A stretch of DNA of 64,000 bases from Limibacillus sp. Lineage in GTDB: Bacteria; Pseudomonadota; Alphaproteobacteria; Kiloniellales; CECT-8803. The notes under the pieces are model-generated. The model saw only the letters and a program-made list of their open reading frames with translations. It was not told the DNA's origin and did not search any database. Location of the stretch: positions 62,001 to 126,000 of the forward strand of contig JARRJC010000003.1 in NCBI GenBank assembly GCA_037379885.1. Direction: 5' to 3'. Of the stretch, positions 22,131 through 25,394 are shown piece after piece. Positions within the stretch are counted from its first letter, which is position 1. Every line of letters begins with the position of its first letter. A program made the translations under genes and the position numbers.

Positions 22131-22931
22131 GTGCCAGCCAGTGAGACTGTCGTGGAAGCCCGTGACGGCGGGTACCGAAGCCGCGAGGAACAGAGCAGCG
22201 AGTCGCTCAACCGCTTACTTCTAATTGAGGACAACGAAGACCTGCGCAGCGAACTCGCCGAGTACCTGACGCGCCAGGGATATGAGGTTACGGCCTATCC
22301 CGATGGACGTCTGCTGCATGGCGGCGGCCACCGCCTGCCCTTCGATGTCATTCTGATGGACCTGACGATACCCGGGGACGACGGGATCGCGCTGACCCGC
22401 GAAGTCCGGGGTCGCTCCAACGTGCCGATCATCATCATCACCGCGCGCGACGATGTTATCGACCGCGTGGTGGGGCTTGAGATCGGAGCGGATGATTACA
22501 TCAGCAAGCCCTTTGACTTCCGGGAGTTGCAGGCGCGCATCAAGGCCGTCATGCGACGCCACGCGATCGCCAGCACCGTGCCCCAGCGCACCTCCAACAA
22601 GCAGTGGAAGTTCCTCGGCTGGAACGTCGACGGACGCAGCCGCAGCGTCATGACGCCCAAAGGCGATTACGTCGATCTGACCACTGCTGAATACATGCTG
22701 CTGGAGGCGTTCCTCAATCATCCGGGCCAGCTTCTGAGCCGCGATAACCTGTTGCAGAACGTCTACAACAGGAAGTGGTCGCCGCTCGACCGCAGCATCG
22801 ACAACCTGGTCGCCCGGCTGCGCAAGAAGCTGGAGGACGAACGCGAGGGCGTGCAGATGATCAAGACGGTCAGAAGCCGCGGATATCTTTTCACCCCCGA
22901 CATCGAGGAGCTGGGCGGCGGTCAGGATTGA
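22131..22931 (+). CDS. OmpR-family response regulator
   Basis: A two-component response regulator of 266 residues. The receiver domain begins RLLLIEDNEDLRSEL; the phosphoacceptor is Asp77 in VILMDLTIPGDDG, and the conserved Lys is in DDYISKPFDFREL. The C-terminal winged helix binds DNA (DLTTAEYMLLEAFLNHPGQ, RSIDNLVARLRKKLED, IKTVRSRGYLF). The GTG start was chosen because GAAAGGAG lies 8 bases upstream; in-frame codons before it give no conserved sequence. It is the first gene of an operon with a YfiR-like protein (22 bases later) and a histidine kinase. Confidence 0.92.
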   Translation: MPASETVVEARDGGYRSREEQSSESLNRLLLIEDNEDLRSELAEYLTRQGYEVTAYPDGRLLHGGGHRLPFDVILMDLTIPGDDGIALTREVRGRSNVPIIIITARDDVIDRVVGLEIGADDYISKPFDFRELQARIKAVMRRHAIASTVPQRTSNKQWKFLGWNVDGRSRSVMTPKGDYVDLTTAEYMLLEAFLNHPGQLLSRDNLLQNVYNRKWSPLDRSIDNLVARLRKKLEDEREGVQMIKTVRSRGYLFTPDIEELGGGQD

Positions 22932-22953
22932 CCGCCGCTGCGGCGGCCGGCAC

Positions 22954-23547
22954 ATGAAGCGAGCCCGCACCAGCACCTCGAGACAGATGGCCCGCCACGG
23001 GGTCTTCGCCAGCCTGGTGTTGATATCTCTGACGGGCCTTGTATCGGTTGCCTATGCGAAAGCCGGGGGGAGCACCGCGCCCGTCGTGCGCGGCTGGGCG
23101 ATCGTAAACCTCATGCGGTTCTCCTACTGGCCCGATGCGGCCTACGCGGACAAGGAAGCGCCGACCGTCGTCTGCGCGCGCCCCGGCCACGTGGTCTTGC
23201 CGGAAGACTATGCAAATGCCGCCACGCCGATAAACGGGCGCGGCGTCATCCTGCGTGAATCGGAAGACTTGGTTCACCTGGAGTCCTGTCAGGTCGCCTT
23301 CTTCTCCAGCGAGGACATGGCGGTCTTCCGGCGTCACCATGCCGGGCGGGCCGACCATCCCATCGCCTATGTCGGCGACACCCCCGGCTTCGCCGCGGAG
23401 GGCGGCTCGTTCGAACTGATACTCAACGAAGACAACGCCTTCTTCCGCTTCAACCAACCGATGCTGGTCGAGTGCGGAATCCAGCTCGCCCAATCGCTGA
23501 TGCGCATGGGCAGCCTGCCCGGCCACGGCGACGGGAGGCAGCCGTGA
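22954..23547 (+). CDS. YfiR-like (DUF4154) periplasmic protein
   Basis: A 197-residue secreted protein. A signal peptide spans about residues 1-36 (FASLVLISLTGLVSVAYA). The rest fits the YfiR/DUF4154 pattern: IVNLMRFSYWPDAAY, VVCARPGHVV, LESCQVAFFSSED, PIAYVGDTPGFAAEGGSFEL (core YVGDTPGFA) and the closing FFRFNQPMLVECGIQLAQS. In Pseudomonas, YfiR is a periplasmic repressor of the diguanylate cyclase YfiN. Here it lies between a response regulator and a histidine kinase whose sensor half resembles that of YfiN. Its stop overlaps the kinase start (GTGA), so the two are translated together. Confidence 0.83.
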   Translation: MKRARTSTSRQMARHGVFASLVLISLTGLVSVAYAKAGGSTAPVVRGWAIVNLMRFSYWPDAAYADKEAPTVVCARPGHVVLPEDYANAATPINGRGVILRESEDLVHLESCQVAFFSSEDMAVFRRHHAGRADHPIAYVGDTPGFAAEGGSFELILNEDNAFFRFNQPMLVECGIQLAQSLMRMGSLPGHGDGRQP

Positions 23548-25394
23548 GCCGCTTCGACAGCAGCCGCTTGGCCAGCGCCCCCTCGCTCCACTCGAAGCTG
23601 AAGCGGGCCTCCCTGGGGACCGTGGTGCTCGCGCTGCTGCTCGTCACCATCACGCTTACCTACGTCCAGTTCGACGGGAACCGCCGCTCCGCGATCAACG
23701 CCGAAGAAGCCATCGCCAAGGTGATCAGCCAGAACCTCGGCGCCACGGTTCTGTTCCGCAATGACACGGCGGCGCTGGAGGTGCTGCACTCGCTCGAAGG
23801 CCGCCCGGGCATGACGGCGGCCGGCGTCTTCCTGCCCGATGGCACGCTCTTCGCCGCCTATCCCCAAGGCGTGGACAAGGAATACCTCCGCATGGGGCTG
23901 GAGATCGAGGGGCACCAATTGGACGCCGGACGCCTGAGCGTGCGTACGCCGATCATGGTGGATTCCGAACTCGTCGGCCAACTGGTCATGGTCTCCGCCC
24001 TGCAAAGCTTCTCGCAGTGGTTCCAAAGCACGGCCGTCATCGTGCTTCCGATCCTGCTGGTCTCCATCGCGCTCGCGGGGATGCTGGCGCGCCGTCAGGT
24101 GAACGCGATCCTCTCCCCTCTGGACGTCTTCCGCCAAGCCATGCGCTGCGTCGGTGAGGGCCGCACCTCGGGTCTTTACATGCCGAAGATCGGAGACCGG
24201 GAGCTGAAGCCGCTGGTGAACGGTTTCAATGAGATGGTCGAACAACTGAACGCTAGCCGCCGGGCCTTGAGCGAAAGCGAGGAGCGCTACCGCAGCATCG
24301 TCGAAAGCCAGACGGAGAGCATCTGCCGCCTCGACCGCCATTTCCAAGTGACCTTCACCAATGGCGCGTTTCTGGAGATGGTGGGGTACGACAGGGACAC
24401 ACTCTACGGAGAACGGCCGGCGAGATTGATCCCGCCGGAGGACTGTAAGTACATCGAGGCGGCTCACGCGAAGCTTTCCCCGCAACAACGCAGCGCCGCC
24501 TTCGCCTGCCGCCTGACCACCGCCGATGGGGAGATCCGCTGGATCGAGGCAACCCTCAGTGCCGTCTTCGACGATCTTGAGCGCATCTCGGAATATCTGA
24601 TCGTGGCGCGTGACGTCAGCAAGCAGCGTGTCGCCGAGCAGATGGCGATCCAGACATCTAAGCTCGCGACCCTGGGGGAGATATCCACCTCCATCGCCCA
24701 TGAGCTCAAGCAACCCCTGAGCGTCATGGACATGATCGCCCAGAACATGATGGAGACGCTCAAGGAGGAGGACTTCACGGCCGAGGAGATGCGCTCCTAC
24801 GCCTTTTCCAAGGCGGAGCGGATCGCATCGAGCACGGCCCGCCTCAGGGCCGTGATCGAGCATCTGCGGATGTTCGGCAGGAAGGTCGACGGCGAAACCC
24901 AGGTCTTCGACAGCCGGGAGAGCCTGAAGGCCGCCTTGATGCTGATCCAGCATCGCTTCGAGCGCGCGGATATCCGTCTCAGCCTGCGCCAGCCCCAACA
25001 GCCTCTGCCGGTGCGGGGGCATACCATCCTCTTCGAGCAGGTCCTGCTCAATCTGCTGAACAACGCCGCGGATGCGTTGGAGGCGCTGCCCGCGGGCTCT
25101 GAGCGAAAAGTCACCGTGGAACTCTGCCGCACCGATAATCTTCTCAGCCTGCTGGTCGAAGATACGGCCGGCGGCATGCCTGATGCCCTGCTCCAGCGGG
25201 CCTTGGAGCCCTACTTCACCACGAAGCCCGCGGATCGAGGCACGGGCCTGGGACTTTCCATCAGCAGCGAAATCCTGCGCGACATGGAAGGCGGCCTCAG
25301 CCTCAAGAATGGCGAGACGGGTCTCCAGGCGACCATCACCGTGCCGCTGGTGCAGGAGGCGTCGCGGGTGAGCGACACGGCTGCCGCACAGTGA
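23544..25394 (+). CDS. Sensor histidine kinase: CHASE8-HAMP-PAS-HisKA-HATPase
   Basis: A membrane sensor kinase of 616 residues. Helix 1 is at about residues 24-44. A periplasmic domain (about 48-160) resembles CHASE8, with AKVISQNLGATVLFRNDTAA and GVFLPDGTLFAAY. Helix 2 is followed by a HAMP linker ending LVNGFNEMVEQL, as in YfiN. A PAS domain (about 248-370) precedes the kinase core: His386 in STSIAHELKQPLSVM, the N-box NLLNNAADALEAL, and the G2 box GTGLGLSIS. The GTG start overlaps the YfiR-like stop, with GGGAGGCAGCC before it. The likely partner is the regulator at 22131-22931. The periplasmic YfiR-like protein may gate it. Confidence 0.9.
   Translation: MSRFDSSRLASAPSLHSKLKRASLGTVVLALLLVTITLTYVQFDGNRRSAINAEEAIAKVISQNLGATVLFRNDTAALEVLHSLEGRPGMTAAGVFLPDGTLFAAYPQGVDKEYLRMGLEIEGHQLDAGRLSVRTPIMVDSELVGQLVMVSALQSFSQWFQSTAVIVLPILLVSIALAGMLARRQVNAILSPLDVFRQAMRCVGEGRTSGLYMPKIGDRELKPLVNGFNEMVEQLNASRRALSESEERYRSIVESQTESICRLDRHFQVTFTNGAFLEMVGYDRDTLYGERPARLIPPEDCKYIEAAHAKLSPQQRSAAFACRLTTADGEIRWIEATLSAVFDDLERISEYLIVARDVSKQRVAEQMAIQTSKLATLGEISTSIAHELKQPLSVMDMIAQNMMETLKEEDFTAEEMRSYAFSKAERIASSTARLRAVIEHLRMFGRKVDGETQVFDSRESLKAALMLIQHRFERADIRLSLRQPQQPLPVRGHTILFEQVLLNLLNNAADALEALPAGSERKVTVELCRTDNLLSLLVEDTAGGMPDALLQRALEPYFTTKPADRGTGLGLSISSEILRDMEGGLSLKNGETGLQATITVPLVQEASRVSDTAAAQ

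Follow-up and report, generated by a model that had tools for sequence, protein, structure and literature searches.

Within the window, a 64,000-nucleotide stretch of Limibacillus sp. DNA, three genes on the plus strand lie in the order response regulator, DUF4154 gene, and CHASE8 kinase between positions 22131 and 25394 (22131-22931, 22954-23547, and 23544-25394, respectively), as laid out in an earlier note made from the sequence. A gap of 22 bases separates the regulator from the DUF4154 gene, and the latter overlaps the kinase gene by 4 bases, with its TGA stop codon at 23545-23547 and the GTG start codon of the kinase at 23544-23546; the overlapping stop and start that the note had taken as support for a physical pair are thus present. 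The short gap and the overlap suggest that the three genes are co-transcribed and that the DUF4154 and kinase genes are translationally coupled. Since the Sel1/SPOR gene upstream is divergent and the tRNA-His gene downstream lies on the opposite strand, the putative unit comprises only these three genes; an aminotransferase gene also flanks the locus, and the region yielded no sigma-70-like promoter. In a profile search, the genome yielded a single DUF4154 and a single CHASE8 domain, side by side, which argues that their adjacency does not reflect chance.

The first gene encodes an OmpR-family response regulator of 266 amino acids, in line with the type assigned in the note, with a receiver domain at 22218-22544 (Pfam Response_reg, 9.5e-26) and a winged helix at 22671-22892 (Trans_reg_C, 9e-22). 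The predicted phospho-acceptor aspartate lies in the motif LMDLTIP (22353-22373), and both the aspartate and the lysine of the regulator are present. The second gene encodes a YfiR/HmsC-like protein of 197 amino acids, whose DUF4154 domain at 23101-23511 scores above the Pfam cut-off (PF13689, 3.1e-14, 53.7 bits versus 24.9). Its only N-terminal hydrophobic segment (residues 15-37) resembles a signal peptide and is followed by AYA-KA; from this segment, the protein is predicted to be exported to the periplasm. A PDB search with a profile of its family matched YfiR only (6.7e-26), and the best 15 Foldseek matches of its AlphaFold model (pLDDT 80.9) were all YfiR crystal chains (prob 1.00, TMt 0.61-0.71). 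These matches make the proposed membership in the YfiR family near certain. A plasmid search with the DUF4154 protein returned no match.

The third gene encodes a membrane sensor histidine kinase of 616 amino acids composed of TM1, CHASE8, TM2, HAMP, PAS, HisKA, and HATPase. The periplasmic sensor domain at 23688-23990, called CHASE8-like in the note, does match CHASE8 (PF17152, 2.1e-12, 47.6 bits, cut-off 27), near certainly, so that both domains for which profile searches had been suggested exceed their Pfam cut-offs. Hydrophobic segments at residues 19-45 and 158-184 flank CHASE8 as anticipated; the HAMP domain (24102-24251) falls below the Pfam cut-off (PF00672, 0.0035, 18.1 bits, cut-off 25), yet a profile of the kinase family's N-terminal half matches solved HAMP structures (NarQ, 3e-06). 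The likeness of this half to YfiN is borne out by the NCBIfam DgcN/YfiN model, which matches residues 13-246 (6.9e-21), and a relative's model shows a CHASE8 region similar to the PAS-like domains of WalK and CitA, which are periplasmic or extracellular, in agreement with the PAS model applied to YfiN.

In the output half, the PAS domain (24282-24641; PAS_4 PF08448 at 9.3e-13, PF00989 at 4.9e-12) and the ATPase domain were recovered as the note had drawn them, whereas HisKA, with 26.4 bits, stayed just below its Pfam cut-off of 26.9. The kinase core, from HisKA to the end of HATPase, spans 24675-25349 (HATPase_c, 6.6e-16) and carries an H-box HELKQP at 24699-24716, an N-box at 25050-25073, and a G-box GTGLGL at 25239-25256. 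No Pfam match to GGDEF was found in the kinase, and its output is HisKA-HATPase, a kinase in the place of a cyclase. Because the H-, N-, and G-boxes and the aspartate and lysine of the regulator are present, the kinase output looks functional. A scan of genome contigs with the whole kinase returned distant kinase cores only.

Contact site and co-variation

Genetic data from P. aeruginosa place the action of YfiR on the PAS domain of YfiN, where the proposed binding site is the AAVVF motif (residues 66-70), matched on the YfiR side by a hydrophobic C-terminal patch (V160, F162, and L183, with mutants F151, E163, I169, and Q187) (Malone et al., 2012; PMC3375315). The kinase carries ATVLF (residues 67-71; 23742-23756) as the equivalent of AAVVF and proposed YfiR-binding motif, and the DUF4154 protein carries FFRFN (23440-23454) as the equivalent of the VSFEVN-type stretch of YfiR and proposed YfiN-binding surface, in which F164 corresponds to YfiR F162 by alignment to a Pseudomonas YfiR and 175 homologues. 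Of 167 paired sensors, kinases and cyclases alike, 166 have the equivalent of kinase Phe71; among CHASE8-like kinases that have no DUF4154 neighbor, a small and distant control set, it occurs in two of five.

Mean-field DCA on 175 concatenated DUF4154-sensor pairs ranked C74-C112, the known disulfide pair, as the top coupling within DUF4154. The top inter-protein pair was A162 (YfiR V160) with S62 (YfiN residue 61, next to Y62), with a z of 6.7, against a highest value of 5.6 among 15 row shuffles. When compared with shifted blocks, the published contact-site block came within the top 0.04-0.65% depending on the measure (above 99.96% for strong couplings). These numbers offer support rather than proof, since row shuffling also erases shared ancestry and shifted blocks overlap. 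Co-variation was weaker in the kinase-only subset (120 pairs), with the contact block in the top 0.7-7.5% by measure and the strongest inter-protein pair outside the published contact site. When a relative's pair (L070) was modeled by AlphaFold as one chain, with two inter-gene stops read through, the model reached a high pLDDT of 91.9 but a pTM of 0.66, and it speaks neither for nor against a contact. The contact on which the note had staked its proposal thus finds indirect evidence in the kept residues and in the co-variation at the same site, and a functional contact between the DUF4154 protein and the kinase appears likely from these alignments.

A different reading is that the DUF4154 protein has its role elsewhere and shares only a transcript with the kinase, which would sense a ligand of its own by CHASE8 or by the cytoplasmic PAS domain. 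The PAS domain after HAMP may indeed supply a separate input, and CHASE8-like kinases without a DUF4154 neighbor do occur; we nevertheless regard this reading as very improbable, given that the only DUF4154 and CHASE8 domains of the genome adjoin each other, that the contact phenylalanine is near-invariant, that co-variation appears at the known site, and that the gene overlap is kept in a relative from the same family.

Sensor outputs across DUF4154 loci

With profiles built for this analysis, 227 non-redundant DUF4154 loci, taken from species-level samples rather than a census, were classified. A sensor with a CHASE8-HAMP-like N-terminal half adjoined DUF4154 as a histidine or hybrid kinase at 122 loci and as a diguanylate cyclase at 49, with a median distance of 47 bases between the DUF4154 and sensor domains, the split between plain and hybrid kinases being approximate as a receiver domain may be hidden in some short loci; the other loci held DUF4154 alone (22), were cut by the contig or locus end (17), encoded single-ORF kinase fusions (8), or were truncated or unclear (9). 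The excess of kinase partners in this survey, of a sort suggested in the note as a check, runs against the unusual rewiring that the note implied. In the literature, the GGDEF domain of YfiN was described as swapped for GGDEF-EAL, HPT, or sensor histidine kinases in many divergent operons, mostly without YfiB, and an ancient modular core was proposed (Malone et al., 2012; PMC3375315); NCBIfam likewise names both families (NF053591/NF053592, YfiR_like_TOL0243 and HK_near_YfiR_like). On these three counts, the reading of the locus as a rare rewiring was rejected.

The solitary DUF4154 genes indicate a family not bound to one role and leave room for a YfiR-like protein that is a co-receptor required for kinase activation rather than a repressor, so that its loss would silence the pathway. 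Some periplasmic partners of kinases, such as LuxP and TorT, act positively, and these data are compatible with either sign of control. However, YfiR and HmsC, the relatives that have been studied, act as repressors, and their contact residues are preserved at this locus; we consider the co-receptor role unlikely.

Parsimony on a FastTree phylogeny of the N-terminal half gave 14 changes between kinase and cyclase output, compared with 41 for shuffled labels, a count rendered uncertain by long branches; well-supported branches force two of the changes. The output was thus probably swapped more than once. In this tree, the window is paired with full support to a relative that belongs to another genus of its family. 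In this relative, the regulator, DUF4154, and kinase genes occur in the same order, with the stop/start overlap, and share 75%, 45%, and 46% identity with their counterparts in the window, respectively; within the family, the sensing pair is far less conserved than the regulator. Separate regulators or kinases lie beside 12 of 23 plain-kinase pairs, whereas all 42 cyclase pairs lack them (p about 3e-07), and a dedicated OmpR-type regulator is found at 4 of the 23 and none of the 42. These four are the window, the family relative, and two genomes that share a genus placed elsewhere in the phylum, where the order is kinase, DUF4154, regulator.

Other arrangements were also observed. Eight DUF4154-HATPase single ORFs (L149, L158, L163, L165, L166, L167, L312, and L313), several with HisKA and three with a receiver, have no CHASE8-like half, and the YfiR-like domain may therefore be the kinase's own sensor. 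At L182, L205, L206, and L207, DUF4154 lies beside kinases whose N-terminal half fails the CHASE8-HAMP profile and which may be sensor partners of another type. A divergent DUF4154-like protein from Alphaproteobacteria (L262) has an OmpR-type regulator upstream.

Redox and outer-membrane input

The Cys71-Cys110 disulfide of YfiR opens and closes in crystals (PMC4887326). By alignment and DCA, its equivalents in the window are Cys74 (23173-23175) and Cys112 (23287-23289); 140 of 167 relatives carry both, and their loss is usually joint. A redox input via this pair is possible, judging from its sequence. The structural pair Cys145-Cys152 of P. aeruginosa YfiR is absent from the window and occurs with 18 of 47 cyclase-type and 0 of 120 kinase-type partners; since 29 of the 47 cyclase-type relatives also do without it, the pair does not define the family.

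No YfiB OmpA/Pal lipoprotein was found in the operon or the flanking genes (Sel1/SPOR, tRNA-His, and aminotransferase), and neither a TonB-dependent receptor upstream of DUF4154 nor any other outer-membrane partner is visible in the window. Among the surveyed loci, DUF4154 is immediately preceded on the same strand by a gene for a TonB-dependent receptor (plug and barrel) at 30 of 70 kinase-type and 13 of 43 cyclase-type loci, with a median gap of -3 bases (L074:4519-6612, L079:5414-7393, and L142:4425-6539, and about 50 other loci), and the receptor may replace YfiB as the outer-membrane input there. Among a few papers that mention both, none appears from its title and abstract to deal with this pairing. 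In Alphaproteobacteria, two divergent DUF4154-like proteins (L257 and L258) are followed by a TonB-dependent-receptor-like ORF.

Relation to Yfi systems and the proposed switch

The locus has the features of the YfiR-YfiN[PAS/HAMP] core module (Malone et al., 2012), namely CHASE8 between two TM segments, HAMP, and a YfiR-like neighbor gene, and is not YfiBNR proper, having neither a GGDEF output nor YfiB in the operon. As in YfiBNR/TpbB of P. aeruginosa and HmsCDE of Y. pestis, a DUF4154 gene adjoins a CHASE8(PAS)-TM-HAMP sensor gene, with the same contact residues and a Cys71-Cys110 equivalent; unlike in these systems, PAS-HisKA-HATPase and an OmpR-type regulator stand in the place of GGDEF, YfiB is missing from the operon, and Cys145-Cys152 is absent. 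The kinase-output Yfi systems (Malone et al., 2012, Table S4; NCBIfam) share with the window a YfiR-like gene followed by a CHASE8-HAMP kinase without YfiB, whereas the window adds the dedicated OmpR-type regulator and scores below the NCBIfam cut-offs (HK_near_YfiR_like on the kinase, 4.9e-32, 111.3 bits versus 194; YfiR_like_TOL0243 on the DUF4154 protein, 34.5 bits versus 125). NF053592 is a narrow subfamily model, its cut-off being reached in only 2 of 397 Pseudomonadota genomes. Because kinase-output YfiR systems are described by Malone et al. (2012) and NCBIfam, the window trio is not new in kind and is a divergent addition to an already published kind of system, its OmpR-type regulator being a small variation, less usual than bare kinase output. 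Among the open papers covered, Table S4 of Malone et al. (2012) not being among them, no earlier description of the OmpR-type trio was found, nor any experiment on a kinase-type member.

We consider it quite probable that the locus encodes a periplasmic switch of the Yfi type whose output is a two-component system. In it, the YfiR-like protein would bind CHASE8, set the state of the kinase, and alter phosphorylation of the regulator. This reading draws on the domains and the YfiR fold, gene order, and overlap, the adjacency of the only DUF4154 and CHASE8 domains in the genome, the kept contact residues and their co-variation, the trio in the family relative, the regulators and kinases found beside kinase-type versus cyclase-type loci, and the YfiR-YfiN genetics. 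Points that weigh against it are the weaker co-variation among kinase-only pairs, the lack of a visible outer-membrane partner, and the HisKA and HAMP scores under the Pfam cut-offs. The exported YfiR-like protein would dock on the kinase's CHASE8/PAS domain at the YfiR-YfiN site and hold one signaling state, to be released or changed by a periplasmic event such as Cys74-Cys112 redox, a ligand, or sequestration by some partner. Via TM2 and HAMP, the change would reach the kinase core, which would alter the phosphorylation state of the OmpR-type regulator encoded alongside it and, in turn, the genes of that regulator. We infer physical binding of the two window proteins from their conserved residues; repression would be the sign of control by analogy with the studied relatives, and the signal, the phospho-transfer to the co-encoded regulator, and the target genes are likewise putative.

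The logic of the trio is shared by CpxP-CpxA-CpxR, in which a periplasmic inhibitor, a membrane kinase, and an OmpR-family regulator act together, a functional analogue compared by logic only; CpxP and CpxA are not known to share a fold with DUF4154 and CHASE8. The proposed switch fits the view of the YfiR-CHASE8 module as a general periplasm-to-cytoplasm switch with variable output, c-di-GMP synthesis being one of several. So small a set of genes, regulator included, would make YfiR control of a kinase directly testable, since phosphorylation of one regulator gives the readout. Far more tentatively, the trio could represent a distinct Yfi subclass, in which YfiR itself would be a redox sensor without an outer-membrane partner, controlling an OmpR-type regulon with no c-di-GMP step. 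One surveyed genome (G392) carries a lone DUF4154 gene (L138) and, elsewhere, a CHASE8-like kinase with AALAF and no DUF4154 neighbor (L187), possibly a split pair.
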